DNA from: Planctomycetota bacterium
GTDB lineage: Bacteria; Planctomycetota; Planctomycetia; Pirellulales; Pirellulaceae
Direction of reading: 5' to 3'
NCBI GenBank assembly: GCA_027619595.1
Contig: JAQCHP010000006.1
Location: forward strand, 1-64,000
DNA: 64,000 bases
How positions within the stretch are numbered: position 1 is the first letter of the stretch; every line of letters begins with the position of its first letter. Both the position numbers and the translations under genes were made by a program. Below the pieces are notes generated by a model. It was not told the origin of the DNA, did no database searches, and worked only from the letters and a program-made list of their open reading frames with translations. Positions 11,566-54,599 of this stretch are shown one piece after another.

Positions 11566-14229
11566 TCATTGTTGACGTGGAGCGGTCTCAGAATTTGGAT
11601 GTTCTTGGTAAATCGGTAAGTGTCGGTACTCAACCTCCAGGCACAATAGGTTCATAACCGTCACATACAGTCGACCGCCGTGCTCGGCCCACCGGTCGGG
11701 GACAGGGCGTAAAGGGTCCCAACTGCCCGCCCAGGAGCCGCTTTGGACTTGCGCGTCCAACAAGATTTTCCTGAGAGCACGATTCCAATGGTTCCAAGTT
11801 TCGCCGCCCGCGTAGTAGGCCGCTAAGGTAGCGTAGTACCAGTAGTAGGCATCGCGCAGGGGCGCGCGAACGGTACCGAGTTGGGGCGGAAATCGCTCCA
11901 ACTGCTCCATCCCATCTTGGTAGCGCTGATCGCCCGGCGATGTGCCGAGATAGAGACTCATCACCATTCCAACAGCCGACATGGCGCGGCTTGGTACGCG
12001 TCCATGGCGTTGCTGCGGGGAATCCCCCGCGTACGGATTATAACGAAAAAGGTGCGGCTTCTCTGGGCGAAAACTAGCATGGTCCAGCCACTTGCGAACG
12101 CCGTCATAAACAGCGTCCGAAACAGCAAGCCCCGATAACTCGCCACTCTTGAGCGCTACCAACATCCAACCGCTTACCGAAGTGTCCGCAGCGACACCCG
12201 GTGCATACCGCCAACCACCCAGATCTGGATGTTGAGCCGATACAATAAAGTCGAGCGCACGCTGAGCAGGCACGCGAAGCTTTGAATCGTGTGTCATCCC
12301 ATAGGCTTCACAAACGGTCATGGCCGCAATCGCGTGACTATATAACCAAACGGTTTGATCCGCTGGGGACCCTTGCCGGACATACAAGTCACCGGAATCC
12401 GCTTGATGGTCCAGCAGATAAGACAGGCCGCTGGAAACGGCCACTTGATATTTATCTGCCTGATGGTGATAGCCAGCCCCAAGGAACGCCAAGAGCGCCA
12501 GACCAGTAGCAGCCGTGCCACTTTCGATCGAGGGGGAAACGTCTTCGCGCGTTGACGCAGGACCCTGTTGAAAACGCCAACTCCCATCTGGAAGTTGACA
12601 GCGGGCGAGGTATTCCAACCCCAATTCGATTGCTACATCGGTCTTTTCGTCCACAGCCGCGACCAGCTTCGATCGGTCAGTCTGCCGCCGCATACGCGAT
12701 TGAAAGGGCATCGCGTCCCTTGCTGCTGAAACGGCCGTCATGGAAGTTGTTGCGTCCGGCGCACCATTCCCTTCACGAATAAATCGCTGCTGGTCCGAGC
12801 TATCAACAAGTATCGATTTATCGACCGCCGAATCAGGTTCGTCGGCTAACGCCATAGCAACACTTTCCGCATCGTTATCCGGCGAATCGGTAGCTTCTTC
12901 GGCGACTGCGTCCATAGGAACGACGATGTTCGGTGTTTGCAATGCGGGCGTGACCGTTCGCCGCGCAAGAAGTTTGGGCACGTCCTGGCCTGGGGAAACC
13001 GACTCCTTCGGCAGTATTTTAGCCAACACGCCAGCATGATCCGCCGGACGAATTCGGCTTATCATTTCCGCTCGTGCCGTGTCCTCTTCCTCCGCAGAAG
13101 TCACGTCATCCTCCAATGAGTCTTCCCACCAACCGTCGGCTAACGCGTCGATTTCCCAAGTTGTTTCCGAGGCGGACAATACGGTCGGCGACTCGAGGTG
13201 CGGTAACCCTGCCGTTTGTGGCTCCATCGAATTGGTCGAAACAACCTGTGGCACAGGGACCATGGCCGGACGCGTTCCCTCAAACGACCGGCTCGTCAGT
13301 CTCGATAGGACCGCAGGCGCCACCGGCAAAGCGACACCCGGAACTTCGAGCACAAACGGATGCAACGAGGCTGCACGCGGTGCGGGCTCATCAGATGAAG
13401 TATCCATGCGGGACGGAGGTGGGATGCGCGATACCTCACCGACCTCTGCGACACCGACCTCTGAAACACGGACTTCTGCGACATCCGCAGGACCAACCAC
13501 CTTGTCGTGCGAAATGTCTGTCATCGGATTCGCCAGCGAAGCTTCAGGCGGTGCGGCAACTTGGGGCACGTCAACGCGATGTTGCAACGTTTGTCGTTTG
13601 GTGGCCGCCGGCAAGACATCGACCGGTTCTGTCGGCGCTACACCGGGGAACGTTGATCCATGATTCGTATTTTCGTATGGCAACGAGACAACAACACGCG
13701 TCTGCGAAGACGATTTAGCGCTGACAATATTTTCGGCGGCAACCACCGATCGTGCTGGGGGCTGTGGTACGACAGCAACTGGCTGAGGCAATTCCGACTC
13801 GGTGGGAAAGACCTCCGTACGATGCGTCGATTCGCGGTAGCGAAACCGGATGCGATCTTCGGAACTGCGCTGAGAGTCTGCCAACGGTGTTTGCAGCACC
13901 GGGTACCAACTCACCAAATTGACCCGATCAAACAGAAAAATGAACAATACATTCGTGAGCAGTCCAAACAGGCACGCAGCGACGAATGCCTGTCGAGGAC
14001 TTCGTCCCTGAAGTAAAGCGACCAAACCGAACACGACGAGATTCGCCATCGTTAACCCAGTTAGAGTCAAGACGGCGCGAAAGACAAGCTCTGGTTGCGA
14101 CACTGGCAGCAACTGCAATCGGAGCAACAGCACGATCCCCGCGATCGCAGCGCACAAGGCGGCAATTGTGAGAGGCCACGTCCCCACGGACTCGTCCGAC
14201 CGCTCGTGCAATTCCCACTTGGTATTCAT
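11566..14229 (-). CDS. Membrane protein with terpene-cyclase-like toroid domain
   Basis: An 887-aa protein and the last gene of the TPR-ExbB-ExbD operon. Residues 1-130 hold three or four membrane segments. About 130-560 is a low-complexity Pro/Ser/Val/Glu linker. About 560-870 is an alpha-toroid of the prenyltransferase/squalene-cyclase type, with repeats such as YLARCQLPDGSWRF, SSGLSYLLDHQADSGDL and ALDFIVSAQHPDLGGWRYAPG. I see no DxDD motif, so it is unlikely to cyclise squalene; proteins of this shape may instead bind polypeptides or lipids in the periplasm. It lies 17 bp after exbD on the same strand, which ties it to that complex. Confidence 0.75.
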   Translation of the reverse strand: MNTKWELHERSDESVGTWPLTIAALCAAIAGIVLLLRLQLLPVSQPELVFRAVLTLTGLTMANLVVFGLVALLQGRSPRQAFVAACLFGLLTNVLFIFLFDRVNLVSWYPVLQTPLADSQRSSEDRIRFRYRESTHRTEVFPTESELPQPVAVVPQPPARSVVAAENIVSAKSSSQTRVVVSLPYENTNHGSTFPGVAPTEPVDVLPAATKRQTLQHRVDVPQVAAPPEASLANPMTDISHDKVVGPADVAEVRVSEVGVAEVGEVSRIPPPSRMDTSSDEPAPRAASLHPFVLEVPGVALPVAPAVLSRLTSRSFEGTRPAMVPVPQVVSTNSMEPQTAGLPHLESPTVLSASETTWEIDALADGWWEDSLEDDVTSAEEEDTARAEMISRIRPADHAGVLAKILPKESVSPGQDVPKLLARRTVTPALQTPNIVVPMDAVAEEATDSPDNDAESVAMALADEPDSAVDKSILVDSSDQQRFIREGNGAPDATTSMTAVSAARDAMPFQSRMRRQTDRSKLVAAVDEKTDVAIELGLEYLARCQLPDGSWRFQQGPASTREDVSPSIESGTAATGLALLAFLGAGYHHQADKYQVAVSSGLSYLLDHQADSGDLYVRQGSPADQTVWLYSHAIAAMTVCEAYGMTHDSKLRVPAQRALDFIVSAQHPDLGGWRYAPGVAADTSVSGWMLVALKSGELSGLAVSDAVYDGVRKWLDHASFRPEKPHLFRYNPYAGDSPQQRHGRVPSRAMSAVGMVMSLYLGTSPGDQRYQDGMEQLERFPPQLGTVRAPLRDAYYWYYATLAAYYAGGETWNHWNRALRKILLDAQVQSGSWAGSWDPLRPVPDRWAEHGGRLYVTVMNLLCLEVEYRHLPIYQEHPNSETAPRQQ

Positions 14230-14246
14230 GAATGCCAGAGTTCGCC

Positions 14247-14663
14247 CTAAGACTCGCCCGTAGTTACCGGATAAATATCTCGAACTCCTACGGCATGACA
14301 GGCATCCATTACACGAACCACGGATTCCCAGTTGCAGCGTCGATCGGCTCGAATCACGACCGACTGCTCCAACGGTCGATTTCCCACAGCCTTCTGCAAC
14401 AGCTCCATCAAGCTGCCCCCCAATATCGAATGGCTCCCCAAAAATACGGTCCCCGCTTGATCAATATTGATGACCAACTCGCGGCGCTGTGATATCATGG
14501 GTTGCGCTTCAGCGGCTGACGGCAGCATTACGTCCATCCTCCGTTCCTCTGCATCAAATCGCGTCGCCACCAGGAAAAACACCAAGAGTAGGAATACGAC
14601 ATCGATAAGCGGCGTCATGCTTATGGAAGCAATAGAATCGGTCTTACGGAGTCGGACTGGCAT
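14247..14663 (-). CDS. ExbD/TolR-type biopolymer transport protein
   Basis: A 138-aa inner-membrane protein with a short basic cytoplasmic N-terminus, one membrane helix (residues about 17-37) and a periplasmic domain. The sequence SISMTPLIDVVFLLLVFFLVAT carries the conserved MTPxIDVVF motif, with the helix Asp that takes part in proton flow. Paired with ExbB it converts the proton-motive force into mechanical work on the envelope. ATG 14663 has AAGGG about 8 nt upstream; a longer reading frame to 14762 overlaps exbB and is not needed. The stop is 17 bp before the cyclase-like gene. Confidence 0.88.
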   Translation of the reverse strand: MPVRLRKTDSIASISMTPLIDVVFLLLVFFLVATRFDAEERRMDVMLPSAAEAQPMISQRRELVINIDQAGTVFLGSHSILGGSLMELLQKAVGNRPLEQSVVIRADRRCNWESVVRVMDACHAVGVRDIYPVTTGES

Positions 14664-14673
14664 GAATCGACCC

Positions 14674-15642
14674 TTATTTCGACCGTGACTTAGGTGGAGA
14701 ACGACCTGGCACTTGAGGCTCGCTTTTCGCTGGCGTTGGCTCAACGTGAACTTGGCCTTCAAAACGCTCCAGATGCGGAGCCATGTTCAGCAACAACTCA
14801 TCGATCCGGTGAAACGCTCGCTCGATGCGCACTTCAAAGTAATGAGCGAGCGTGGCAGCAGGAATCGCGACAACCAAACCACCAAGTGTCGTCACCAAGG
14901 CCTCGTAAATCCCTCCTGAAAGCAAATCAGCGCGGTTTTGATCGCCAGCAATGTGCGTACTTTCGTAAAACGCTTGGATCAACCCCCAAACGGTCCCTAA
15001 CAGTCCGACGAGCGGTGCAATTGCGGCAATCAATGCCAGCCAACGTGCATTTGCAAACAGTCTAGACGCTTCTCGCTGTGCCGCCTCTGCTGCAACACGA
15101 TCGACTTCGGCCTGTGGGCGCCCGACCTTGAGCAACATAGCGCGCAACACATTGGCTGTCGCCGAAGGATGATCCTGGCACACAAGATATGCAATACTCG
15201 GATCAAGTCCCTGTTTCGATTCAGTCAATTCGCCCAAGGACGATAGCAGCGAATTGGGCATTAATTGGGAATCCCTCAACGCCATCCATCGATCGATCGA
15301 TATCGCGACGACCGCCACGGAGAAGACGCCGAGAACGATCATCAAAGGACCACCACGCCAAATCAACCACAATAGATTCATCGGCTGGGCGGGATCGGCA
15401 TTCTGTGAACCATCAATTAGTGTCTCGTCGCCCTCTGGGGGGTTAAGCAACTCGTCATTGGCCTGATCGGCGAGGACCAAGTCGAGGTCAGTGGCATTTG
15501 CACCTTCCGTAGGGCTCACCGGGTAATCGACTGCGCGGCCCGGGAGCGGTTGCCCCTGGATCACCGCAGCAAAGATCAACACAAGTCCCCATGCGGCAGC
15601 GCATGGATGCTGTGCGAGTGAGCACCAACTTTTTAGTTCCAT
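14674..15642 (-). CDS. ExbB/TolQ/MotA-type proton channel protein
   Basis: A 322-aa protein. Residues 1-40 contain a signal peptide-like segment followed by an acidic linker; then come membrane helices at about 90-110, 200-225 and 240-265. The core APLVGLLGTVWGLIQAFYES and GIYEALVTTLGGLVVAIPA are the conserved second and third helices of the MotA/TolQ/ExbB family. A long basic C-terminus ends SPPKSRSK. Planctomycete ExbB proteins often have this extra exported N-terminus. The start ATG 15642 is preferred over GTG 15654. It is followed 10 bp later by exbD and preceded by the giant TPR gene. Confidence 0.86.
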   Translation of the reverse strand: MELKSWCSLAQHPCAAAWGLVLIFAAVIQGQPLPGRAVDYPVSPTEGANATDLDLVLADQANDELLNPPEGDETLIDGSQNADPAQPMNLLWLIWRGGPLMIVLGVFSVAVVAISIDRWMALRDSQLMPNSLLSSLGELTESKQGLDPSIAYLVCQDHPSATANVLRAMLLKVGRPQAEVDRVAAEAAQREASRLFANARWLALIAAIAPLVGLLGTVWGLIQAFYESTHIAGDQNRADLLSGGIYEALVTTLGGLVVAIPAATLAHYFEVRIERAFHRIDELLLNMAPHLERFEGQVHVEPTPAKSEPQVPGRSPPKSRSK

Positions 15643-15681
15643 ACCAAATATCACCGATGAAATTTACTTAACAAGTCAACG

Positions 15682-18600
15682 CTAGGGACTTAAGCCTTGC
15701 AACCGCTGTTTGGCAGTCGCCGCCTCTTCGGATTGCGGGTGCGACTTAACAACGTATTGAAACGCTTTCGAGGCTTCTGCGATCCAACGCTGTTTGGAAG
15801 CGGCGTCGCGTGAGAGCCTTGCCACGGCCGTGGCACATTGTCCTGCTTCGAAGCCAGCTTTCGCTTGCCAAACTTGGAGCGGTTCCGGTGCGTCATTGCC
15901 ACCATAACCGTACATAACTTTCTGAAACTCCTGCACTGCTTTCGCGTACTGTTTCTGCTCAAACAAAAGCTCGCCAATCATAAACCTCGCTCGCGCGCCA
16001 ATCGCATTCCGGGCGACATCCGCCACTTTCTGGTAGACGCGAATTGCTTCGTCGCGACGACCTGTCTGGTGATACGCCCAAGCAATCTCATAATTTGCCT
16101 GGTGAACATTGCCAGAATTCGCATACTTTTCTGGAACAACAGACAAAAACTTGAGGCTTTCCTCCCAACGTTTGAGCTGTGCTGCGCATTGACCGCTATG
16201 CAGGTACAAGGCGGGAAGGATTTCGACCCGCAAGTCGTCCACCTTTAAGCGCTGGTATTGCTCCAATGCCTTAGCATATTCATGAAGATTGAAATAACTT
16301 TCACCCACCATAAAGATCGCGTCGTGCCGCAAAGCTCCTGTAGGAAACTGCTTGATCTGTTGGTCAAATTTATCGCGAGCTTGCTCAAATTTCCCTGTTT
16401 GAAAGTCGCACCAAGCCAACTTGTAGGTCGCCTTCTCACCAAGCTCGGGGTTGTCTGCCAACGCCGGATGTGACTGTAACACGACGTAACGTTTGGCTGC
16501 ATCTTCGTATTTGGCCGCAACGTAGTCATTCTCAGCCAAATGATAGAGTGCTTCGACAGCTAAGGAGCTAGTTGGACTCATTGCAGCAAGTGCCTGAAAC
16601 TGCTCCAGTGATTGCTCACCCTGTCCTGACTCCTTAAGCGCCCACGCCAAGTCATAGCGGGCACGATCAGTACGATGGTATTTGGGATACTCTTTCAGCA
16701 ACCTCTGGAGCGAGGCGACGGCCCGCTCTGACTGTTTGAGAGCCGTACTACATACGGAGCTCAGGTAGAGAGCTTCATCCGCATGTTCTTCCGTCGAGTG
16801 GTCCGTCACGAACTGATCGAAATCGGTACGAGCCGACTCGTATTCTCCCATCCTTTGGCCAGCCACACCGCGCGCATAACGAGCACGACCCGCCAATGAG
16901 TGTTGGGGAAACTTTTCCATTAAACTGGCAAACGAGTCCCGCGCTGCGGACTGTTCATTCAGTCCCAACTGGGACCAGCCGAGTCCGTAGTAGGCAAACG
17001 GAACCCAAGACGACGATGGCCACTTTTCCAGGACTTCTTGGTAGTGTTCGACGGCTTCACGATAGACCTTGTCCGCATAGGCAAAATCGGCCCATCGCAG
17101 GTGGCATTCATCAAGTACAGCACTCTGTGGAAATTCCTGAAGAAGATCCGCCAGAGTCTTTCTGGCTGCTGCGGAACTTTGTGTGGTGCGCTGCACACGA
17201 GCCAGAGCAAACAGTGCCTCGTCGGCTTGCTTCCATCGGCGGTCACTGGCTAGCGATTTTGTGAGTGACTCCTCGGCATCTACCGCATTGCCAAGTGCAA
17301 GTTGGCAGAGTCCTCGCACGTACAAGCTTTCTGCTTGATGGGATGTTGACTGGAGCGACGGAAAAACCTCGTCCAGAATCTGAATGGCGGCCTCATGTCG
17401 ATTGGCCAAATTCAAGGCCAGCGCTTGCCGGACCCCCCAATAGGAACGGTAGGCTTCTGGGCCAGTTTCTCGCAGCTCGGCAAACAATTTGTCCGCTTGT
17501 TCGAATTCCTTTATCTGCAACGCTGACTCCGCAGCAACAGATCGAAGTTCTGCTTCCAACGGCGTAACGGGTTGGTCGGCCCCTCGCGGTAGAGGAGTAT
17601 TGGCGATCTCGCGAGCCTTCTCGAAGTCACCTTTTTCCAGATACGCGTGCGCTGCGTTGTAGAGCGCCCTTGGCGTCAAGTAGTGTTCTGGAAACTCCTT
17701 AGCAATTGCTTCGTATTCAGTAACAGCCTTTGGCTTGTGGTCCGTATCTTGATACCATGCGTCGGCGCGATCCAGTCGCAGATGGACCAGATAGTCGGTG
17801 GGCTTAGCCAATGGCAGTCGGCTCTCCACCCGCTGCAATACTTCATCCGCCCGACGAGCCTGCAACGCATCGCGGTTTAGCCAGTGAGCCGCTTCATTCG
17901 CCAACACAATAGCTTGGGGCGAACCTTCCAAGAGAAATGCCTTTTTATACCACTCGCGGGCAGCTTCCACATCCGGCACGCGGTAAAAGCTCCTGGCTGC
18001 GGCAATCGTCGCTTCCGCCGCCAACGGAGAAGCAGAAAAGTCACGAACGAGTTGCGAAAATGTCTCAGCGCCGCGCCGAAAATCGTCCAAACTCGCCCAA
18101 CTGTAGGCAGCACGAAAAAGCGCGTGATCGGCTTGAAGATAGTCTGGCTTCTTGGCAGCTAACTCGAACTCCTGCGCCGCCTCCGCGAATTTTTTTTGTT
18201 GCAGCATGGTCTCCGCGCGACGCGTCATTACTTCGGGCACCAAGGTATGATCGGGCTGAGAATCCAAGAATTTCTTAAACGCTCCCTCAGCACCGGCAAA
18301 ATCTTGGGACTCCTCCAACGCAACACCCAATGCATACAAACCATCGGGCACCAGCCCGGATCCAGGAAATTCCTCTACCAGCTGCGCATAGCTCTTCAAA
18401 GCAGCGGGTAAATCTTGTCGTAGGTATTGGCATTCCCCGAGATAGAACAACGCCTGATCTTTGCGTCCCGCGTCAGGAAAATCGCTCAGATAGCGCGACA
18501 ATGCCTCGACACATTGACGCAGCCGCTCTTCTTTCTGCTCCCCTTCGGTTTCATTTAATGCCCATGTGTAATGGGCCAGCCCAAGATTCAGCCAGGCTTC

Positions 18601-19080
18601 TTCGGTTAACGACTTGTTCGACCCCTGCGTGACCAGCGTCAACGTTTCAACGGCGTGATCGAAGTGTTCCGCCTGCCCTTCACCCGGCTGATTTGCCAAT
18701 TGCAATTGGCTCATGCCCAGGTTGTAACGCGCTTCGGCAGCTCGACTGTCAGCAGGATACTTTTGCAGAAATTTTGCCCAAGCCTCGGCAGCCAAATCAA
18801 AAGCCTGATTATTCTGGAAGTTGGCCGCATCGGTGAACAGCTGAATGAGTTCGGGGGGTGCCGCCTTCTCACCGTCATTTTGAGGGGGGGACGCGCCATC
18901 GTTGGGCTTCTTGGACGAGGATTCGGCCGCCTTTGCCGGTGCGGGAACTTTCGCGGGATCTTCCGCAGATAGGACCGGCGATACACATTGCCCCGTGAAG
19001 CCGACGATGGACATCCAGCAGACCCAACCGTACAACGGTCGCCGTAAGATAACCATCGGAGCATGACTACAAGATTTCAT
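15682..19080 (-). CDS. Giant exported tetratricopeptide repeat protein
   Basis: A 1132-aa protein with a signal peptide (cleavage likely after VLSA, about residue 39) and a short Pro/Ala/Lys linker. The rest is a continuous array of about 25 TPR or TPR-like pairs (e.g. FDLAAEAWAKFLQKYPADSRAAEARYNLG). The repeats resemble those of CpoB/YbgF and outer-membrane assembly lipoproteins. Its position directly upstream of exbB and exbD suggests a periplasmic scaffold working with that motor, analogous to Tol-Pal partners. I infer this from order only. It is the first gene of the operon; the promoter should be in 19081-19231, where GACGCC/GGCGTC forms a hairpin in the leader. Confidence 0.82.
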   Translation of the reverse strand: MKSCSHAPMVILRRPLYGWVCWMSIVGFTGQCVSPVLSAEDPAKVPAPAKAAESSSKKPNDGASPPQNDGEKAAPPELIQLFTDAANFQNNQAFDLAAEAWAKFLQKYPADSRAAEARYNLGMSQLQLANQPGEGQAEHFDHAVETLTLVTQGSNKSLTEEAWLNLGLAHYTWALNETEGEQKEERLRQCVEALSRYLSDFPDAGRKDQALFYLGECQYLRQDLPAALKSYAQLVEEFPGSGLVPDGLYALGVALEESQDFAGAEGAFKKFLDSQPDHTLVPEVMTRRAETMLQQKKFAEAAQEFELAAKKPDYLQADHALFRAAYSWASLDDFRRGAETFSQLVRDFSASPLAAEATIAAARSFYRVPDVEAAREWYKKAFLLEGSPQAIVLANEAAHWLNRDALQARRADEVLQRVESRLPLAKPTDYLVHLRLDRADAWYQDTDHKPKAVTEYEAIAKEFPEHYLTPRALYNAAHAYLEKGDFEKAREIANTPLPRGADQPVTPLEAELRSVAAESALQIKEFEQADKLFAELRETGPEAYRSYWGVRQALALNLANRHEAAIQILDEVFPSLQSTSHQAESLYVRGLCQLALGNAVDAEESLTKSLASDRRWKQADEALFALARVQRTTQSSAAARKTLADLLQEFPQSAVLDECHLRWADFAYADKVYREAVEHYQEVLEKWPSSSWVPFAYYGLGWSQLGLNEQSAARDSFASLMEKFPQHSLAGRARYARGVAGQRMGEYESARTDFDQFVTDHSTEEHADEALYLSSVCSTALKQSERAVASLQRLLKEYPKYHRTDRARYDLAWALKESGQGEQSLEQFQALAAMSPTSSLAVEALYHLAENDYVAAKYEDAAKRYVVLQSHPALADNPELGEKATYKLAWCDFQTGKFEQARDKFDQQIKQFPTGALRHDAIFMVGESYFNLHEYAKALEQYQRLKVDDLRVEILPALYLHSGQCAAQLKRWEESLKFLSVVPEKYANSGNVHQANYEIAWAYHQTGRRDEAIRVYQKVADVARNAIGARARFMIGELLFEQKQYAKAVQEFQKVMYGYGGNDAPEPLQVWQAKAGFEAGQCATAVARLSRDAASKQRWIAEASKAFQYVVKSHPQSEEAATAKQRLQGLSP

Positions 19081-19231: not shown

Positions 19232-20215
19232 ATGAGTCAAAACGCCATGAAGCATGTACTGGTCACCGGTGGGGCCGGTTTTATCGGCTCCCATTTGACC
19301 GAATCGCTCCTGAACGACGGATACGCGGTGCGTGTCGTGGACAATGAGTCGACCGGTCGACAGGAAAACCTAGCTAAGGTCTGGAAACACCCCCATTTGG
19401 AGTACATACCAGGTACGGTGACCGACCCGGACCTGGTCCGAGACGTAGTCCAAGGTTGCCAAATGGTTTTCCATCTTGCGGCGTCCGTGGGAGTTGCGCT
19501 CGTCGATCGAGACCCGATCGAAACGGTAGAACAGAATATTCGACCGGTGGCCCTCCTCTTGGAGGAGCTGCGACAGATTCGGGATCGGCAGGGGATCCGG
19601 GTTCGTTTTTTCCTTGCCAGCAGTAGTGAAGTCTACGGCAAGAACCCCAAGGATTCATGGGACGAAGCGGATGAACTGCACTTCGGTCCGACCACCTGCA
19701 TGCGCTGGTCGTATGGCATGTCGAAAGCGATCGACGAATTCCTAACCTTGGCCCACGGCAGGCAATACGGACTGCCGGTAGTCATCGCGCGGTTTTTCAA
19801 CGTCGCTGGACCTCGACAAACTGGCGTCTACGGCATGGTCCTACCCCGTTTTGTTCAAGCAGCGTTAGCCGGGCAACCGCTCGTGGTGCATGACGACGGC
19901 CTACAAGAGCGGTGCTTTGCCCATGTGTCCGACGTTGTCGCTGCCGTTCGTGCGCTGATGGATTCACCGCAGACGATCGGAAGTATCTTCAACGTTGGTA
20001 CCGACGAAGCGGTCACCATCCGGCAACTAGCAGAACGAGTCATCGATCGAGCCGATTCAGTCAGTCGTATTACCTTTCAACCCTATTCAGACGCTTACAG
20101 CGCAGATTTCCAGGATGTTCGCCGACGGGTGCCCAACCTATCAAAATTGCGATCCGCGATCGCTGTGCGGCCGAAATATCGCCTCAACGATATTATTGAT
20201 GAACTTGTGCAGTAG
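19232..20215 (+). CDS. NAD-dependent nucleotide-sugar epimerase/dehydratase
   Basis: A 327-aa extended short-chain dehydrogenase. It has the Rossmann motif GGAGFIGSHL near the N-terminus, SSSEVYG at the active site, and the catalytic YGMSK (Tyr-x3-Lys). It belongs to the group of UDP-glucose 4-epimerases, UDP-glucuronate decarboxylases and related enzymes; the HLAASVGVALVDRDP segment recalls UDP-xylose-type enzymes, but the substrate is not certain. It probably supplies a sugar nucleotide for envelope polysaccharides. ATG 19232 has no clear ribosome site; ATG 19247 (MKHVLVTGG) is an equally good start. It converges with proB. Confidence 0.82.
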   Translation: MSQNAMKHVLVTGGAGFIGSHLTESLLNDGYAVRVVDNESTGRQENLAKVWKHPHLEYIPGTVTDPDLVRDVVQGCQMVFHLAASVGVALVDRDPIETVEQNIRPVALLLEELRQIRDRQGIRVRFFLASSSEVYGKNPKDSWDEADELHFGPTTCMRWSYGMSKAIDEFLTLAHGRQYGLPVVIARFFNVAGPRQTGVYGMVLPRFVQAALAGQPLVVHDDGLQERCFAHVSDVVAAVRALMDSPQTIGSIFNVGTDEAVTIRQLAERVIDRADSVSRITFQPYSDAYSADFQDVRRRVPNLSKLRSAIAVRPKYRLNDIIDELVQ

Positions 20216-20287: not shown

Positions 20288-21454
20288 TCAGACCTTTTCG
20301 CTGCCCGACTCGCGATCGCAACTGGTGACGGCCAAATTGTCGCGATGGACAACCTCTTCATACGGACATTGCCCCAGCAACTCCAGAATCTCACTGCTAC
20401 GCAGTCCGCGAATCCGCAGGATGTCGGCGGCCGAATAGTTGGTTAAACCGCGTGCGATCTCACGGCGTTCTTGATCGCGAATAGAAACGACATCCCCCTT
20501 GTCGAAGTTCCCAATACTATCGGTAATGCCGATCGCGAGCAGGCTCTTGCCGTGGTTTACCAACGCCTGACATGCTCCGGCATCGACGATAATCTCTCCG
20601 CGTGGTCGCACCGCAAAGGCGATCCAACGTTTCCAGGGAGTCACTCGCTTTCCTTGGGCTGTGAACAGAGTTCCCACCGATTCGCAGGCCAAGATTCTCT
20701 GAAGCACCTGGGGTTCATGCCCTCCAGCGATGATCACATTCTCGCCGGCAGTCGTGGCAATACGTGCTGCCTCCAACTTGCTCCCCATCCCCCCTTTCGA
20801 TAGGTGATTTTTTGTCAGTTGGACATAGCCTAGAACCTGATCATCGATGGCCGTTACGGTGGGGATACGTTGTGACGACGGGAGTCGCGGATCGCCGTCG
20901 TAAAGCCCCTGCACATCCGACAAAATTACCAGCAAAGGAGCCCGCAACAGGTTGGTGACCATGGCCGCCAACCGGTCGTTGTCTCCAAAGGTCGTCTGAA
21001 GTTCATCCACGGCCACAGTATCGTTTTCGTTGACGATCGGCACGGCGCCCAAATGCATCAACGTGAGCAGCGTATTGCGGACGTTAAGGTACCGCCCGTG
21101 GTGATTCAAGTCGTCGGCGGTTAGCAAAACCTGACCCGCCATCCGCCCGTGATGCTGCAGAATCCGATCATACGCTTCGATCAGTTTCGTCTGACCGATG
21201 GCGGCCACGGCCTGTAAATGAGCCAAATCGTTGGGCCGTTCCTTCCAGCCCATTTGGCTCATGCCGGCTCCGACCGCACCGCTGCTCACCAGCACGACTT
21301 TGCGACCGCTTTCGAGCCAACTACACAGCCCCTCACTCAATCGCCGTATCTGGTCCTCGTCCAAGTGGCCATCGGACCGCGTCAAAACACGGGTGCCCAC
21401 CTTGACTACCACAATATCTGTTTGGGAAATGACTTCCTGACGAAGCGAGTCCAC
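20288..21454 (-). CDS. proB: Glutamate 5-kinase with PUA domain
   Basis: A cytoplasmic enzyme that phosphorylates glutamate, the first step of proline synthesis. The amino-acid kinase domain spans about residues 10-250, with VVVKVGTRVLT, VSSGAVGAGM, NENDTVAVDELQTTFGDNDRLAAMV and KNHLSKGGMGSKLEAA. A PUA domain (about 275-360) includes GEIIVDAGACQAL and ALVNHGKSLL. I chose GTG 21454 (reads VDSLRQEVISQ), because AAAGGA lies 10 nt upstream and the length (388 aa) fits; ATG 21514 is an alternative. The open frame extends far upstream, but that part overlaps purF. proA is not in the window. Confidence 0.9.
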   Translation of the reverse strand: MDSLRQEVISQTDIVVVKVGTRVLTRSDGHLDEDQIRRLSEGLCSWLESGRKVVLVSSGAVGAGMSQMGWKERPNDLAHLQAVAAIGQTKLIEAYDRILQHHGRMAGQVLLTADDLNHHGRYLNVRNTLLTLMHLGAVPIVNENDTVAVDELQTTFGDNDRLAAMVTNLLRAPLLVILSDVQGLYDGDPRLPSSQRIPTVTAIDDQVLGYVQLTKNHLSKGGMGSKLEAARIATTAGENVIIAGGHEPQVLQRILACESVGTLFTAQGKRVTPWKRWIAFAVRPRGEIIVDAGACQALVNHGKSLLAIGITDSIGNFDKGDVVSIRDQERREIARGLTNYSAADILRIRGLRSSEILELLGQCPYEEVVHRDNLAVTSCDRESGSEKV

Positions 21455-21673
21455 GGTGGACGATTCCTTTGCGATCTTTACGATAAGGGGAATTGGCTTG
21501 AGCCGCCCGATCATACCACGAAACGAGCGGTTTTCCCCAGGGCAGACGGGCAAATTCGCTGGTACCGGGGGTAGGGCAATGGGACGCGGGTCCGCTAGAC
21601 TGATGCTTCGCACGGCATTGAGAATCGCCGCGGCGTCTTGCACGATTGAGAGACCGGCCAGGGGTACCATTCG

Positions 21674-23263
21674 ATGAGCGACGAAATTCGGGACGAATGC
21701 GGAGTCGCCGCCATCTATTATTGGGACGCCGCGCGGACCAGCCCCATCGTCCCCGACTACTTTCAAACCTCGCGTCTCATCCCCCGAATGTTGCTCGATA
21801 TCCAAAATCGAGGACAATTGGCCGCCGGCCTGACCGCCTTTGATCCGCGTAGCCCACAGCTCCTGCGTACTCTTAAGGATGTCGGCACGGTCAGCGAAGT
21901 TTTTCGTTTGTCGCATCCTGGCAAGCGAGAAAGCATCATGCAGCAATACCCTGGCTGTGCGGCCATCGGACACGTACGCTACGCCACGTGTGGCGAAGAT
22001 GATCGTGAAAATGCTCAGCCCTTCGAGCGACATCACTTGCAAAAGCACAAATGGTTTAGCTTTGGCTTTAACGGCCAATTGGCGAACTATGCGGAGTTGC
22101 GTCGGGAAGTTCTGCACGGTGACGACTATCATCTGTCACGCGACACCGACACGGAAATCTTCATGCACCTCATTAGTCGCGAAACGTCGGGCGACCGTCG
22201 CCCCCATGTACGCGACATGCTCAAATCCACCAGCCAACAACTTGACGGAGCCTACAGCCTTGTCTACCTGAACGCTTGCGGAGAAATGATCGTTGCCCGC
22301 GATCCGTTGGGAATCAAGCCGCTCTGTTATGCGGCAGAGGGTCCGCTGTTCGCTGCAGCGAGCGAAAGTGTTCCCTTAACAAACCTCGGCTTTCGCTCAG
22401 AGAATATCCGCAGTGTCGAACCTGGCGAAGTCCTTACCATCAGCCCGCGTGGAATCGAGCGTGGACGATTGTCCGAATCAACCGGTCGCGCACATTGCTT
22501 CTTTGAATGGGTCTATTTCGCCAACGTTGCCAGCACTCTTGACAATCGCAGTGTTTACCTTTCTCGTACGGCCCTCGGCGCAGAACTCGCTCGCATCGAA
22601 AAAGAACAGCCCTTGCTAACTCTTGATGGCGACACGATTGTAGTGCCCGTCCCTGATACGAGCAAAGCGGCGGCCGACTCCATGGCCTACGAACTGGGAA
22701 TCCCCTGCCGCGAGGGGCTAATTCGCAACCGCTATTCGGGCCGAACGTTTATTGAAACAGGCAAAGGACGTCAGCGTGCCGCACAACTTAAGTACACACC
22801 ACTTCGCGAAGTACTGGATGGCAAACGCGTCCTCCTCGTCGAAGACTCCATAGTACGTTCCACGACAATGAAGGTACTGCTCGGTCGTATGCGAGAAGAG
22901 ACTCGCGTCCGAGAAATTCACGTGCGTGTCGCTTGTCCCCCAATCGTAGCCCCCTGTTTCTATGGGATCGATATGTCGACGGTTGCGGAACTATTTGCGA
23001 CCCGTTATCTGAATGCGGATAATCCACTTACCTCCGACATCGAAGCTCAAATGGCCGCAGATCTGGGCGCGGACTCGTTACGTTACCTGCCTCGAGAATC
23101 GGTCGCACGAGCTATCCAACGTCCCTCCAATGAACTCTGTCAGGCGTGCATCACTGGGAATTATCCGACCGCTTCCGGCGCGAAACTCTATCAAATCGCT
23201 CTTCAGGCCCCTAGTACCGTCCAGCCCGAGCACGCGCGGGGCGCAAGGACCTACGAATCCTAG
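21674..23263 (+). CDS. purF: Amidophosphoribosyltransferase-like enzyme
   Basis: A 529-aa class II glutamine amidotransferase fused to a type I phosphoribosyltransferase. The N-terminal MSDEIRDECGVAAIY places the nucleophile Cys after DE, as in PurF; IGHVRYATCGEDDRENAQPF and FGFNGQLANYAELR complete the glutaminase site. The PRPP loop is VLLVEDSIVRSTTMK. PurF makes 5-phosphoribosylamine at the start of purine synthesis. The Cys after DE requires a propeptide of 8 residues, which is present as MSDEIRDE. The region around the second substrate site (KYTPLREVLDGK) differs a little from classical PurF, so a paralogous role remains possible. AGGGG upstream of the ATG supports the start. Confidence 0.87.
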   Translation: MSDEIRDECGVAAIYYWDAARTSPIVPDYFQTSRLIPRMLLDIQNRGQLAAGLTAFDPRSPQLLRTLKDVGTVSEVFRLSHPGKRESIMQQYPGCAAIGHVRYATCGEDDRENAQPFERHHLQKHKWFSFGFNGQLANYAELRREVLHGDDYHLSRDTDTEIFMHLISRETSGDRRPHVRDMLKSTSQQLDGAYSLVYLNACGEMIVARDPLGIKPLCYAAEGPLFAAASESVPLTNLGFRSENIRSVEPGEVLTISPRGIERGRLSESTGRAHCFFEWVYFANVASTLDNRSVYLSRTALGAELARIEKEQPLLTLDGDTIVVPVPDTSKAAADSMAYELGIPCREGLIRNRYSGRTFIETGKGRQRAAQLKYTPLREVLDGKRVLLVEDSIVRSTTMKVLLGRMREETRVREIHVRVACPPIVAPCFYGIDMSTVAELFATRYLNADNPLTSDIEAQMAADLGADSLRYLPRESVARAIQRPSNELCQACITGNYPTASGAKLYQIALQAPSTVQPEHARGARTYES

Positions 23264-25778: not shown

Positions 25779-25994
25779 CAAAGGACCTAAAGACGACTCC
25801 GCAGAGCAAATAGACACAACGAACACGTATAATCGACACAATCGTTCCGTCACCGGACCGGAAAAAAGCCATAATTCTTTGGATTTGCGCGCAAAATCCT
25901 GGGTCATGTGGGCTCTTTTCTCTAGTGGACACCTTTTTCCTGATTGGGCCCTGTCCCGAAGTACTACCAATATTCCAATGCTGGGAGATTAACC

Positions 25995-28643
25995 GTGCTC
26001 GAACTCGCTCTCCTTCTCGTGCTTGTGCTGATAGCCGTGTGCACCGGAGTATTCGTTCGATTGGCAAGTTTGCGGCGCCATCAAGAGTCGATTCTATTTG
26101 CCATCCACAAGGGACTTTCCGCGATTGAGTCGCGGCTACGGCGTTTGGAATCCCATTCGACGCCGTCGGACTCAAGCCCAGTCGTCACGGAATCGCCCGA
26201 AACTCACAGTCAAACCAAGCTCCCTAAGTCAGTCGATGTTGCGACCGACATTCTGCAGGCCGATCTCGTAGTACCTATCGTGAATCCCTCCGAATCGGAA
26301 CTCCCCAAGTTTGTTCCCGGGACAAGACCACTCCGACCCGCTACCGACGTCGAACCGCCATACACTTGGGGCGCCCAACCACCGGCCGGGACATCGCGAC
26401 CCAATTTGACCACGGCCGACGATCTAACCGTTTCGGCCGCCGGACCGTCGGTCGCCCACATGGCCTACCTACCACGTAAGCCGTTCGACAGTCCTGCTAA
26501 GCCCGATACGCGGTCTCCCTTTGAAGAAGCGGCGCAGGAGGTGCTACGTAAAATGTGGGCTTGGTTTGTCGTGGGCAAGGATCGCGTCCCCGAAGGGGTT
26601 TCGCTGGAATTTGCCATCGCCAGTCAGTGGTTGCTCCGCCTCGGTGTTTTGATTTTGCTATTTGGCATCGGTTTCTTTTTGAACTATTCGATCAAGCATG
26701 GTTGGATCGGACCAGAAGGCCGCGTGGGCCTGGCAACGCTCGCCGGCATGAGTATGTTGGCGGGTGGCGTACACCTCCTAGGTCGTCGGTACCATCTCTT
26801 GGGACAAGGACTGATGGGCGCAGGCACCGCGACCATCTACTTCACCATTTATGCCGCACAAACGAACTACAATCTCATCACGGCGCCAACGGCCCTGACC
26901 TTGATGTGTCTCGTCACGATGGCCGCCGGACTGCTCGCCATTCGATTTGAATCGCAGTTATTGGCAGTGCTTGCGATTGTCGGCGGCTACGGCACCCCGT
27001 CGCTTGTCGGTCCCGAACTAAGGAACGTCGCCCAGCTTTTCCCCTATCTTACGGTGCTGGGCATCGGCGTGATGTTCATTTCCGCTTGGAGGTCTTGGCC
27101 GTGGCTCAATCTCTTGAGCTTCCTCATGAATAGCGGCCTTGTGTTGACGGCTCTCAATACTCCCCCTCCCGAACCATTTTGGCAAGTCTATCCGTTCTTG
27201 ATAGGTTTCTTCCTCGTCTTTTCAACAGCGTCGTTTGTACACAACGTCTATCGTGACGTGCCGTCCTCCATCCTTGTGTTACTGGCACTGCTGGCGAATA
27301 GCACTCTGTTCCTGGGTGAGAGCTATGCGTTGGTTGAGGAAAATTTCAGTCGACGACACGTCGGAATTGTAACGCTGTCGCTGGCCGCATTTTATGTTGC
27401 TCACGTACACTATTGCCTCTCGCGTCAGCGCAAAGATGCCGGGCTGCTGTACACGTTCTTGGGGTTGTCGGCACTGTACCTTGCACTAACGCCAGTCTTA
27501 GCGATTTCGGCACGATGGTTGGCGCCCGCCTGGTCGGTTCAGGCGGTCGTCATGATCTGGATCTCTTACCAATTGCAAAGCCCCTTCTTGCGCCGCCTGG
27601 GGGAGTTACTGCTCACCCTGGTGGTCCTTCGATTGGGCTTATTCGATCTTGCGCTACACTACGGCACTTCGGAAGCTGGTATCACAGCGACTGGATACTT
27701 ACAGCATTTTCTCGAACGTTTGGTCGTCATAGGAACTCCGATTGCGTCCATTGCAACCACGAGTTGGCTGGCTGGACAACAAAAGAACTTGACACCTGCT
27801 TCCGTGGGGTCAACACCTGCTGCCGACTTCAACTTGAGCGCCAACGCAGCAATCGTGACGTTTATCGTCGTGTTTTTGTTTGGCAATTTGGAAGCATACC
27901 ACTTAGCCGATGCTGTGAATGGCCTATGGCGTCCGGCGGCAATTACGTTCATTTGGGCCGCTGCATTCCTCTGGCTCCTATGGCGAGGCCAAGCAGTTTC
28001 TTCGTCGCTACGCAATACCGCGTTGGTCGTGCTTGGATTCGCCATCATTGTCAAGTATCTATGTTGGGACATTGCACAATGGAACATCGGTGATGGCTTC
28101 TTGTATACCGATCCTTTCGTGGCGTCCGACTTCGGACTGCGACTGCTCGACTTTGCTGTCATCTTGTGTACCCTTGTGGTGGGGTGGCGTCAATTCCTCA
28201 CGCAGTCCGAGGATGCCGACTCGCGGTCAGCCAGCAATGCCTTCGGTGCAGCCGGGATCGGATTGCTATTTCTCTTCTTGACATTGGAAACGGGAACATT
28301 CTTCCAATGGAAATTGCCCAACTTGCGATTTGGTGCCATTTCCATCCTGTGGGCATCGTATGCGTTGGCACTTCTCTTGGCAGGAATGCAATACCGGCTC
28401 CGGCCACTACGGTACGCGGGCTTGGCACTCTTCAGTATTGTGGTAGCAAAGATCTTCTTTCTGGACTTACAAGAACTTGACACGTTCTACCGGATTATCG
28501 CGTTCCTCATCTTGGGCTGCTTGACAATTTGCGGTTCGTACCTATACCTACGATTCCAGGAGATGTTCACTGCGGACCAAGCTGCCGATCGACCCAAGAA
28601 ACCAAGCGAGGAGGTTCCCGCGGAGCCGACAACCCCATCATGA
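25995..28643 (+). CDS. DUF2339 multi-pass membrane protein
   Basis: About 882 aa. The start GTG 25995 has GGGAG 7 nt upstream and opens directly in a membrane anchor (VLELALLLVLVLIAVCTGVFV). A short coiled coil (RRHQESILFAIHKGLSAIESRLRRLE) and a Pro-rich linker precede 20 or more hydrophobic helices from about residue 205 to 860. FAIASQWLLRLGVLILLFGIGFFL and GRYHLLGQGLMGAGTATIYFTIYAA type motifs identify DUF2339. Function is unknown; an envelope role is likely. The next gene begins at the overlapping ATGA and belongs to DUF3999, its usual neighbour. Confidence 0.85.
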   Translation: MLELALLLVLVLIAVCTGVFVRLASLRRHQESILFAIHKGLSAIESRLRRLESHSTPSDSSPVVTESPETHSQTKLPKSVDVATDILQADLVVPIVNPSESELPKFVPGTRPLRPATDVEPPYTWGAQPPAGTSRPNLTTADDLTVSAAGPSVAHMAYLPRKPFDSPAKPDTRSPFEEAAQEVLRKMWAWFVVGKDRVPEGVSLEFAIASQWLLRLGVLILLFGIGFFLNYSIKHGWIGPEGRVGLATLAGMSMLAGGVHLLGRRYHLLGQGLMGAGTATIYFTIYAAQTNYNLITAPTALTLMCLVTMAAGLLAIRFESQLLAVLAIVGGYGTPSLVGPELRNVAQLFPYLTVLGIGVMFISAWRSWPWLNLLSFLMNSGLVLTALNTPPPEPFWQVYPFLIGFFLVFSTASFVHNVYRDVPSSILVLLALLANSTLFLGESYALVEENFSRRHVGIVTLSLAAFYVAHVHYCLSRQRKDAGLLYTFLGLSALYLALTPVLAISARWLAPAWSVQAVVMIWISYQLQSPFLRRLGELLLTLVVLRLGLFDLALHYGTSEAGITATGYLQHFLERLVVIGTPIASIATTSWLAGQQKNLTPASVGSTPAADFNLSANAAIVTFIVVFLFGNLEAYHLADAVNGLWRPAAITFIWAAAFLWLLWRGQAVSSSLRNTALVVLGFAIIVKYLCWDIAQWNIGDGFLYTDPFVASDFGLRLLDFAVILCTLVVGWRQFLTQSEDADSRSASNAFGAAGIGLLFLFLTLETGTFFQWKLPNLRFGAISILWASYALALLLAGMQYRLRPLRYAGLALFSIVVAKIFFLDLQELDTFYRIIAFLILGCLTICGSYLYLRFQEMFTADQAADRPKKPSEEVPAEPTTPS

Positions 28644-30058
28644 AATACGTATTTACTTTTCGCTGCATTTCCGCTGTGGCTGTCCTATTCGTTTGCATCG
28701 ATCCGCTAACGGCTTTACCCCCCCTGCCGAACGATTTTCCACGCTACAAGGAAATACAATTCAACATCCCATCGTCGACGACGGAACTAGCTACCGTTCG
28801 TTTGGACGACAATGTTTATGCGCACACATCCAACTTGAACGGTGGACTGCAAGTCTTCCAATCGGACGGACCGGTTGTTGCGCATACGATCAACATCGCC
28901 ACTGAAAAACGAAGCGTCAGCCGACGAGAAACCTGGGCTCCAGAGCGTGTTGATCTGCAGAAACAGCCCGATGGAAGCCTTCTGTTCACGCTAACAACAA
29001 AAGCTAATCGAGCCATCGACGGTATTCACATCGATACTCCATTGACAGATTTTTACCAACATGTCACCGTGCATGGCCAACAACTAGGGGGTGAATGGCA
29101 GGAAATCGTACCCAAGGCCGTGATCTACGACCTTTCTCAGCATTTCGCCTTCCGAGCGAGCGACATTCCATTACCTGTCAACAACTATTTGGCTTTTCGC
29201 GTCGTCATCCATGAGCCGACCAGCGATGTGCCGATGGAAAGACAGCAGATCACCGAAACACGAACTGCCGGTGGAATTGACTCAACCACGCTCACACGCT
29301 CCATTCAGCAACGCCCGTTTCAAGTTGGCCGATTCTCATTTTGGAGTAACGTGTCGGAACCCTACCACGTCAAGCCGATCGTTCAAGAATATTCTACCCG
29401 AGACTTCCGCGCCGAACCGTATAAACAAGAACAACGGGTCGAGTACCTGTTTTTTGCCACCAATGGCCAACCGCTCACCGAAGTGAGTCTACTGACAGAT
29501 CAGGAAAATTTCTCACGAGAGGTAACTTTAGAAACCAAGGTGGAGACCTCGACCGGCACTGATTGGCGGTTCGTTGCACGTGACCGTCTGCAAGCGGTCG
29601 CGTTTCGCGAACTCCAGCGGGCCCATTTGCGTCTCACATTCGCAGAAACACGCGAGCGCAATTGGCGCATCTCTATCGATCATGGTGACAATGCGCCCCT
29701 CACGGTAACCGGCGTCAAAGCCGCTGGACATGTGCACGAGTTGCAATACTTGCACGAATCAGGCAAACAGTATCGGCTCTATTATGGGGCAGCAGATTCA
29801 CTGCCAACCGCACTCGACACGACCGCGCTACGAACGATTTCCCAAAGGGGCTACGCACCCGTCACGATGAAGCTCGGGGAACCAGTCACTAATACGAGTC
29901 ACGATCCTCGCGGCCGCCGTACGAATGTGATTGAAATTCCGCAGGTCGTGTTTTGGATCGCAGGATTGATCCTGATGACTGTCACCGTGTTGGGACTGGT
30001 GGCCGCCGTCGGACGGATGGAATCGCATTCCGGCCCTGAGAAGCCGTCCGATTCTTGA
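28640..30058 (+). CDS. DUF3999-like exported protein
   Basis: A 472-aa protein with a signal peptide (about residues 1-23, ending LTALP), a mostly beta-strand periplasmic region and a C-terminal membrane helix (WIAGLILMTVTVLGLVAAV, about residues 440-460). The layout matches DUF3999, the standard neighbour of DUF2339 proteins. The ATG (28640) overlaps the TGA of the DUF2339 gene, so translation is coupled and the two proteins probably form one complex with its bulk in the periplasm. Function unknown. Transcription ends before the converging hpnE gene. Confidence 0.75.
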   Translation: MKYVFTFRCISAVAVLFVCIDPLTALPPLPNDFPRYKEIQFNIPSSTTELATVRLDDNVYAHTSNLNGGLQVFQSDGPVVAHTINIATEKRSVSRRETWAPERVDLQKQPDGSLLFTLTTKANRAIDGIHIDTPLTDFYQHVTVHGQQLGGEWQEIVPKAVIYDLSQHFAFRASDIPLPVNNYLAFRVVIHEPTSDVPMERQQITETRTAGGIDSTTLTRSIQQRPFQVGRFSFWSNVSEPYHVKPIVQEYSTRDFRAEPYKQEQRVEYLFFATNGQPLTEVSLLTDQENFSREVTLETKVETSTGTDWRFVARDRLQAVAFRELQRAHLRLTFAETRERNWRISIDHGDNAPLTVTGVKAAGHVHELQYLHESGKQYRLYYGAADSLPTALDTTALRTISQRGYAPVTMKLGEPVTNTSHDPRGRRTNVIEIPQVVFWIAGLILMTVTVLGLVAAVGRMESHSGPEKPSDS

Positions 30059-50387: not shown

Positions 50388-51950
50388 GTGGCGCACGAAC
50401 TGGCAATGGATAAATCCCAGGCAATCAAGCACTTAGGACAATTGGGCTATTCCGAGCGATCGATCATGTCGGTGCTCGATGTGTCGCGGACTGCGGTGCG
50501 ATGTCATTTGGGTCGGAAGGTTTCAAAAGAGACCAAGGCGCCCACCGGGTCGGCGCCCACCGGCGTGGAGGACGCAAAAGAGACCAAGGCGCCCACCGGC
50601 TCGTCGGCCGATGTGAGGTCCGATCGGCCATCGCGTAGCGCGAGTGCTTGCGAGCCGTTTCGGGAAGTGGTCGTGGCCAAGCTCGAGCAAGGCCTCACGG
50701 CACAACGGATCTTTCAGGATCTGGTGGATGAGCATGGTTTCACGTCGCGGTATCCGTCGGTACGTCGGTATGTCGCAACGCTAAAGGAGTCAACGCCGCT
50801 CCCCTATCGACGCTTGGAATGCGATCCAGGTGCCGAGATGCAGGTGGATTTTGGCAGCGGCGCACGATGCATGCGTGAACCGGGCAAATGGACGAAGACG
50901 TACGTATTCCGCGCGGTGCTGAGCCATTCTCGCAAAGGCTATTCGGAGGCGGTCCGTCGCATGACAGTCGAGAGCTTCATGGATGTTTTGGAGAACTGCT
51001 TTTGGCGTGTTGGCGGCGTTCCCCAAGTAGTGATTTTTGACAATGGCTCGTGCGCCGTGAAGGCGGCGGACTGGTATGACGGAGAACTCCATCCGAAGAT
51101 CGTTGACTTTTGCAAACACTACAATTTCGCTTTGGTGCCGACGCGTCCAAGAACACCTCGTCACAAAGGGAAGATCGAGCGTGGGATAGGCTACGTGAAG
51201 TCCAACGCACTCAAGGGGAAGACATTTGATTCATTGACAGCGCAAAACGAGTGCCTGGCACACTGGGAGAAGACGGTTGCAGACAGGCGAGTCCATGGCA
51301 CAACGAAGCAACAGGTAGGATACGTATATGACACGTTGGAACGCAGAGCACTTCAGCCGTTGCCACGGGAACGATTCCCTCACTACGAAGAAGGAAAACG
51401 CATCGTGTCGCGTGACGGTCACGTGGCTGTAAGGCACGCATACTACTCAGCGCCGCCCGAATATGTGGGGAGAGAAGTGTGGGTACGTTGGAACAGTCAT
51501 ACGTTACGCATCCTCAATTTGCGAATGGAACAGCTTGCGATTCACTGCACTCAAGAGAAAGGACGCTTTAGCACGTTGGGCGAACATATTGCTCCGGAAA
51601 AAGTGCATCCCATCGAAAAAGGAGTCGAATATACCCTGCGAAAGGTGCGTTTCCTAGGTCTTCATGCCACACGTTGGGCGGAGCTTCTGATCGAGGAGCG
51701 AGGCGTTCAGGCCACGCGTTCGCTGCAGGGCCTACTGAGCTTGAGCAAGAAGTATTCTTCCGATGAATTGAATCGGGCGTGCGACATTGCTTGGAAGAGC
51801 AAGGCCACCAATTACCGTTCGATCAAGAAGCTACTGGAGAATCGCTCCGCCGGCGTACAGCAGACCATGGAATTCATGGAAGAGCATCCCATCATTCGGC
51901 CCGTATCGGAATATGGGCAATTCATTCGTCAGGCCATTCAAGGAGGATAG
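50388..51950 (+). CDS. istA: IS21 transposase IstA
   Basis: A 520-aa DDE transposase with an N-terminal helix-turn-helix (about 1-50, YSERSIMSVLDVSRTAVRCHLGRK). A linker (about 50-85) carries repeats of KETKAPTGSAPTG, encoded by repeats of the element's own end motif. The rve/DDE domain is about 110-290: MQVDFGSGARC, VVIFDNGSCAVK and RHKGKIERGIGYVK (catalytic D, D, E). The C-terminus has the usual IS21 shape. GTG is the start. istB follows after 4 bp. The frame is intact. Confidence 0.92.
   Translation: MAHELAMDKSQAIKHLGQLGYSERSIMSVLDVSRTAVRCHLGRKVSKETKAPTGSAPTGVEDAKETKAPTGSSADVRSDRPSRSASACEPFREVVVAKLEQGLTAQRIFQDLVDEHGFTSRYPSVRRYVATLKESTPLPYRRLECDPGAEMQVDFGSGARCMREPGKWTKTYVFRAVLSHSRKGYSEAVRRMTVESFMDVLENCFWRVGGVPQVVIFDNGSCAVKAADWYDGELHPKIVDFCKHYNFALVPTRPRTPRHKGKIERGIGYVKSNALKGKTFDSLTAQNECLAHWEKTVADRRVHGTTKQQVGYVYDTLERRALQPLPRERFPHYEEGKRIVSRDGHVAVRHAYYSAPPEYVGREVWVRWNSHTLRILNLRMEQLAIHCTQEKGRFSTLGEHIAPEKVHPIEKGVEYTLRKVRFLGLHATRWAELLIEERGVQATRSLQGLLSLSKKYSSDELNRACDIAWKSKATNYRSIKKLLENRSAGVQQTMEFMEEHPIIRPVSEYGQFIRQAIQGG
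50525..50599 (+). repeat. End-motif copies inside istA (element 1)
   Basis: Two identical 24-bp units at 50525-50548 and 50576-50599, each AAAAGAGACCA plus A and GGCGCCCACCGG, with an extra GGCGCCCACCGG between them (50552-50563). AAAAGAGACCA is the same A-box as terminal repeat L2, and GGCGCC is the G-box. Copies are 51 bp apart and lie in frame, encoding KETKAPTG. Confidence 0.8.
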
Positions 51951-54481: not shown

Positions 54482-54599
54482 GATAATCACATCCGTGGAT
54501 ACGCCAAACCCCAGCTCGGCGGCTCTCTTTGCCGCCATGACCATGGAGTGGCGCAAGTAACATGAACACCGCGATGGGTGCAAGACGAATTTCTGCAAA

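Follow-up and report, generated by a model that had tools for sequence, protein, structure and literature searches.

A toroid-headed candidate force transducer encoded with ExbB and ExbD in planctomycetes

Described force transducers and the operon in the window

Cryo-EM has shown that Ser16 and His20 of TonB, and Ser18 and His22 of TolA, contact Ser34 and Trp38 of ExbB and Ser28 and Trp32 of TolQ (PMC12215075). Asn has been reported to take the place of His20 of TonB fully (Swayne & Postle 2011, by its title among the references of PMC8928145). In planctomycetes and other PVC bacteria, force transducers with a vWA head have been described (Williams-Jones et al. 2025), whose genes occur with TPR, tolQ-like and tolR-like partners, and the same authors state that further such systems are still to be discovered (PMC12204202). 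That paper makes no mention of a toroid, prenyltransferase, squalene or cyclase. Our literature search found no paper that mentions ExbB, ExbD, Planctomycetes and squalene together, and the term "squalene oxidase repeat" was not found in connection with planctomycetes. One paper mentions planctomycetes, ExbD and prenyltransferase, once each.

The window analyzed here is a stretch of 64,000 nucleotides from a genome of 281 contigs and 5.18 Mb, whose closest named relatives among the matches listed are Rhodopirellula, Rubripirellula and Blastopirellula (Pirellulales-like). An earlier note on this DNA described a giant exported TPR protein, an ExbB with an exported N-terminus, an ExbD and an 887-aa protein with a linker and a toroid (here called TOR), all encoded on one strand with gaps of 10-40 bp. 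The gene calls, the Pfam matches and an AlphaFold2 model bear this description out, with TPR, ExbB, ExbD and TOR following each other on the minus strand at gaps of 39, 10 and 17 bp (Table 1). The TPR protein matched Pfam TPR_6 at 3e-56 and NCBIfam tol_pal_ybgF at 279 bits against a cut-off of 90, a score that is inflated by the repeats. Both motor subunits scored above the Pfam cut-offs, ExbB with MotA_ExbB (1.4e-27) and ExbD with ExbD (1.9e-24). In 37 of 73 eligible loci, the gene of a sugar-nucleotide epimerase lies next to the TPR gene and diverges from it, which hints at envelope glycans and does not imply that the enzyme is a member of the machine.

Table 1. Features of the operon and its neighbor in the window. 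ATG starts were used for ExbB and ExbD; the starts in the open reading frame list are longer and were judged less plausible.
Feature	Position	Strand	Remarks
TPR protein	15682..19080	-	Exported; opens the operon; 1132 aa with TPR repeats of the CpoB/YbgF type
ExbB/TolQ-type motor subunit	14674..15642	-	322 aa from ATG; signal-like exported N-terminus
ExbB residues S108 (docking serine), T217 and T251/T252 (pore), P261			Alignment to solved TolQ and ExbB
ExbD/TolR-type motor subunit	14247..14663	-	138 aa from ATG; proton-carrying Asp is D21; aligned to solved ExbD
TOR, toroid-headed proposed force transducer	11566..14229	-	887 aa; three TM helices, linker, toroid; full-length AlphaFold2 model
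TOR TM1 and TM2 (aa 18-40, 46-73)	14011..14178	-	Extra hairpin ahead of the docking helix; hydropathy and model
TOR TM3 (aa 78-102), proposed motor-docking helix	13924..13998	-	Motif positions aa 89 and aa 93, bases 13951-13965
TOR linker (aa 112-503)	12721..13896	-	Disordered, Pro/Ala/Ser-rich, periplasmic; pLDDT below 50 throughout
TOR (alpha/alpha)6 toroid head (aa 528-869)	11623..12648	-	AlphaFold2 and structure comparison
NAD-dependent sugar-nucleotide epimerase/dehydratase	19232..20215	+	Divergent neighbor; Pfam Epimerase 1.6e-50

Like the vWA transducers, TOR combines a Ser-His transmembrane helix and a disordered linker with a globular head that is not of the TonB type, and its gene lies in an operon with TPR, tolQ-like and tolR-like genes. 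Unlike in the vWA transducers, the head is an alpha-toroid and a vWA fold was not found, the linker measures 355-1820 aa across orthologues (Pro 11%) compared to about 100 aa, and TOR has three TM helices; other toroid subtypes have one TM helix, or a propeller and TM helices. The layout in the window also differs from theirs in having one ExbD; a layout with two ExbD genes occurs in other toroid families. The operon shares with TonB-ExbB-ExbD of E. coli the ExbB/ExbD motor, a Ser-x3-His helix and a Pro-rich disordered linker, but no TonB_C domain was found in TOR by Pfam search, the linker is far longer, a TPR partner and an extra TM hairpin are present, and the docking-site Trp of ExbB is replaced. 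Where TonB and TolA carry a small CTD, TOR carries an (alpha/alpha)6 toroid. TOR is thus outside the TonB/TolA family and the vWA transducers by its head, and outside the terpene cyclases by the DxDD motif, and it appears to work like TonB/TolA and the vWA transducers. What is new lies in the head, in the far greater length of the linker and in the additional TM helices, on an arm that otherwise follows the known vWA-type idea.

Docking helix and motor residues

The third TM helix of TOR has a single strongly conserved polar position, column 93, which across 95 orthologues is His in 85, Asn in 9 and Tyr in 1. Column 89 of the same alignment is Ser in 68, Cys in 13, Gly in 9 and Ala in 5. The window copy has Gly89 and Asn93, both different from Ser and His, so the Ser-x3-His feature is present in the TOR family and weakened in this copy. 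The Asn variants, including the TOR of the window, carry the same substitution as the one reported for His20 of TonB. The final Leu-Ser of SHLS is not kept in the 95 orthologues. A stretch 33-50 aa past the His, "VPEY ... PD[YFW]xxPV", occurs in 59 of the 95 orthologues and is missing from the window TOR; it was considered as a possible equivalent of the motor box.

In an N-terminal TM segment, the strict S...H pattern was found in 97 of 144 membrane-anchored toroid proteins compared to 1.5% of 532 background TM segments, and [SC]...H in 110 of the 144 compared to 2.3%; since proteins are set here against segments and the proteins are related, the enrichment is a contrast and not a p-value. 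Most of the exceptions in this count were secreted toroids. Further sampling took in 15 loci of the class that belong to other families, and [SC]...[HN] was found in all 14 in which the N-terminus was covered. The loop between TM2 and TM3 contains 3.4 K+R versus 0.5 D+E, and by the positive-inside rule these charges would place the N-terminus of TOR inside and the toroid outside.

The motor subunits carry the features of the ExbB/TolQ and ExbD/TolR families, namely the Pfam family match, the pore Thr and the proton-carrying Asp. Asp21 of ExbD is invariant in 96 of 96 orthologues, and among 85 ExbB orthologues the docking Ser108 of TM1, the counterpart of the TolQ docking serine in the alignment, is kept in 83, the pore Thr217 in all 85 and Pro261 of TM3 in 84. 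This conservation of the proton-path residues agrees with a proton-driven envelope machine, as had been proposed from the first look at the sequence. The docking-site Trp of the TonB/TolA interface is Val in this ExbB, and an interface identical to that of TonB/TolA was rejected on this ground. Judged from the residues, the proton motor is intact and the arm contact would be similar to that of TonB/TolA, not identical.

Gene order and distribution among planctomycetes

TOR has an orthologue or a close homologue in 60 of 60 relatives from the order. The arrangement is not a chance one. Of 42 orthologous loci from the order relatives, 32 have all four genes on one strand in the order TPR-ExbB-ExbD-TOR, and so do 55 of the 80 named loci, which are the best matches listed and are all Pirellulales-like. 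The other loci among these 80 have ExbB-ExbD-TOR (5), ExbD-TOR (8) or TOR alone (12), and many of the last sit at contig ends, so that their neighbors are cut off. In Blastopirellula, Pirellula and one other family, adjacency is reduced to ExbD-TOR, with ExbB and TPR elsewhere. The order that the earlier note had put forward for a conservation check is therefore kept in most of these loci, and the toroid gene did not prove to be unlinked in the orthologous group, although some lineages keep ExbD-TOR only.

Beyond the order, motif-bearing toroid proteins adjoin ExbB/ExbD in distant planctomycete families, with two operon layouts overall. The same four genes were found in five loci of distant families of the phylum (L223, L224, L228, L232 and L235), and the second layout, ExbB-ExbD-ExbD-(exported protein)-TOR, in another family of the class. 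The source genome has a second cassette (L085, contig C269), which groups with distant families in the TOR and ExbB trees, apart from the window copy, and single-TM toroid paralogues (L082-L084) that are unlinked. In three relatives (L081, L097 and L098), a PD40 propeller (TolB repeat) is fused to the arm, and the cassettes L081 and L098 cluster in the TOR, ExbD and ExbB trees alike. The tree distances of TOR, ExbD and ExbB correlate with r of 0.80-0.87 across 92 cassettes, to which species history contributes.

The toroid domain was detected in 59 of 59 sampled genomes of the class, a tally that takes in secreted, unanchored paralogues and is thus not a count of arms. In the same 59 genomes, a TonB_C domain was matched in 13 and TolB_N in none, the source genome included; the positive controls were detected, and a missing Pfam match for either domain is not proof of absence. 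In the source genome, a single TonB, a single OmpA-domain protein and a single TonB-dependent receptor were found, none of them on the contig of the window. The operon resembles Tol-Pal (TolQ-TolR-TolA-TolB-Pal-CpoB) in its motor, its CpoB/YbgF-like TPR protein and its S-x3-H arm, but differs from it in that TOR has no TolA head, TolB_N is unmatched, and the single OmpA-domain protein, a possible Pal with a lipoprotein-like start, is unlinked to the operon.

The toroid head and the proposed mechanism

The full-length AlphaFold2 model of TOR (23 relatives) contains the three TM helices, the unstructured linker and a confident toroid at the limits given in Table 1, and the toroid modeled alone reached a pLDDT of 89. 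VIA-align superposed it on squalene-hopene cyclase 2sqc_A with Z 26.2 and an rmsd of 3.5 over 301 residues, and on many other (alpha/alpha)6 proteins with Z 21-24; since many toroid families score at Z 21-26, the fold assigns no function or enzyme class. The invariant polar and aromatic residues of the toroid, Y143/H145, D195/S197, R305-Y312 and R366 (A2 numbering), cluster by sequence at the starts of inner helices and in the adjoining loops, which suggests a binding or catalytic pocket.

Such a pocket would also suit a toroid that is tethered to the inner membrane as an enzyme with glycan, peptidoglycan or lipid as its substrate, with ExbBD driving something else or only regulating or positioning the enzyme. 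The closest folds that are enzymes, namely squalene-hopene cyclases, sugar epimerases and GH76, fit this explanation, as do the toroid paralogues that are secreted without a membrane anchor. However, non-enzymes have the same fold, no known catalytic motif was identified, and the Ser-x3-His/Asn helix, the very long and variable linker and the repeated linkage to ExbBD would be left unexplained; we therefore regard this explanation as unlikely.

The toroid had also been proposed to be a periplasmic receptor. The docking motif and the order of parts as in TonB/TolA indicate more than a receptor. With its predicted N-in docking helix bearing Ser-x3-His/Asn, the long linker through the periplasm and the globular head that follows, TOR is most likely the moving arm itself and not merely a receptor beside the motor. 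That TOR is a receptor or scaffold which the motor does not move would suit the conserved operon with its scaffold-like TPR protein, but we consider it very improbable in view of the conserved motif, the TonB-like sequence of helix, linker and head, and the ExbD-TOR pair that persists in several lineages while TPR and ExbB are elsewhere. As to the TPR protein, its earlier description as a scaffold is a guess.

That TOR is simply a terpenoid cyclase in the wrong place, beside its neighbors by chance, can be dismissed as next to impossible: TOR shares the toroid fold and a QxxDGSW repeat-like motif with squalene-hopene and other type II terpene cyclases and has a weak match to Pfam SQHop_cyclase_C, but this match is below the cut-off, TOR has a membrane arm and a motor, and the linkage to the motor is kept phylum-wide. 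DxDD was not found in the window TOR and is absent from 163 of 166 toroid domains, the remaining 3 having it at unrelated positions. The earlier doubt about catalysis as a squalene cyclase was thus well placed, and a squalene or terpenoid cyclase identity was rejected on the absence of this motif.

Some observations count against the reading of TOR as an arm. The window copy lacks both motif letters and the stretch past the TM helix that many relatives have, and the final Leu-Ser of SHLS is not conserved. ExbB has Val for Trp, TOR has two more TM helices ahead of the docking one, and in some lineages ExbB and TPR lie apart from TOR. The correlation between the trees can also stem from a species history that the genes have in common.

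Taken together, we consider it probable that the operon encodes a trans-envelope force transducer driven by the proton motive force, with TOR as its arm. An ExbB pentamer and an ExbD dimer would form the proton motor in the inner membrane, and TM3 of TOR would dock on the outer face of ExbB through Ser-x3-His/Asn, as in TonB and TolA. The long disordered linker would span the periplasm, and the toroid head would grip a putative partner in the periplasm, the cell wall or the outer membrane. Proton flow through ExbB5-ExbD2 may then move or tension TOR, by which the motor would pull or remodel the partner, and a probable role of the exported TPR protein is to link the arm with the partner or with the machinery of the cell wall, which is what CpoB does in Tol-Pal. 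As to the task of the machine, we can guess at outer-membrane maintenance or a glycan-related function that partly fills the place of Tol-Pal.

A wider reading is offered tentatively, as a possibility that we find rather doubtful: Planctomycetia may have largely swapped TonB/TolA for a toroid family with 3-10 members in each genome, of which several would be motif-bearing arms, and the conserved pocket of their heads would bind a glycan or lipid, or process it chemically, as the motor pulls. The head would then be a motor-delivered enzyme or a gripping ring that substitutes for Tol-Pal.

These results bear on how energy from the inner membrane is coupled to the outer envelope in planctomycetes, whose outer membrane is unusual and whose periplasm is large, and in which there are few signs of Tol-Pal or TonB. 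A family of toroid-headed candidate arms offers named genes and single residues that are amenable to testing, and it would extend the rule of exchangeable heads on one motor, from the CTD of TonB/TolA and the vWA domain to the alpha-toroid.

Recurrent segment and propeller-fused arms

A recurring segment, VPEY ... PD[YFW]xxPV, was found 33-50 aa past the TM3 His in 59 of the 95 TOR orthologues, and it is missing from the TOR copy in the window. This stretch could be an ExbD-binding motor box. In three other toroid arms, those of loci L081, L098 and L097, a PD40 propeller (TolB-type repeat) is fused into the chain, after the first TM and ahead of the TM that bears Ser-x3-His.

Genes around the operon

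The epimerase gene and the TPR gene are divergent, and the neighbour comparison shows that this arrangement recurs in 37 of 73 eligible relatives. In addition, a related epimerase lies directly 5′ of ExbB in loci L255 and L259. The kinase domain of the glutamate-5-kinase-like ORF starts near residue 240, and the 5′ portion of this ORF overlaps a GATase ORF (21674-23263); therefore, its listed start is probably too early.

Coordinates of genes in the window and at other loci
Feature	Location	Strand	Own contig
NAD-dependent sugar epimerase/dehydratase	window 19232-20215	+	
Glutamate-5-kinase-like ORF	window 20288-22132	-	
DUF2339 membrane protein, then DUF3999 protein	window 25944-30058	+	
Mu/rve-type transposase	window 50388-51950		
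IS66 transposase	window 52808-54682		
Toroid arm, fused PD40 propeller	L081:3821-7618		
Toroid arm, fused PD40 propeller	L098:298-3867		
Toroid arm, fused PD40 propeller	L097:4299-7676		
TPR, ExbB, ExbD, ExbD cluster	L188		C258
Exported protein (weak squalene-cyclase and HEAT matches), then ExbB, ExbD, ExbD and PQQ-propeller protein	L189:3124-11064		C78
Sole TonB_C protein of own genome	L191:5815-6552		
Additional toroid protein	L082		C51
Additional toroid protein	L083		C110
Additional toroid protein	L084		C20

Motors and toroid proteins elsewhere in the genome

No arm gene was seen near the L188 cluster. At L189, the exported protein is followed by ExbB, ExbD, ExbD and a PQQ-propeller protein. 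The TM of the TonB_C protein contains S-x3-H, as STALH, and its gene is not adjoined by ExbBD. The more distant toroid proteins of L086-L091, several with export signals, showed no docking motif and are possibly free periplasmic members. The additional toroid proteins of L082, L083 and L084 each carry one Ser-x3-His TM, and ExbBD is absent from their neighbouring genes, a layout as expected for arms using a common motor in trans.
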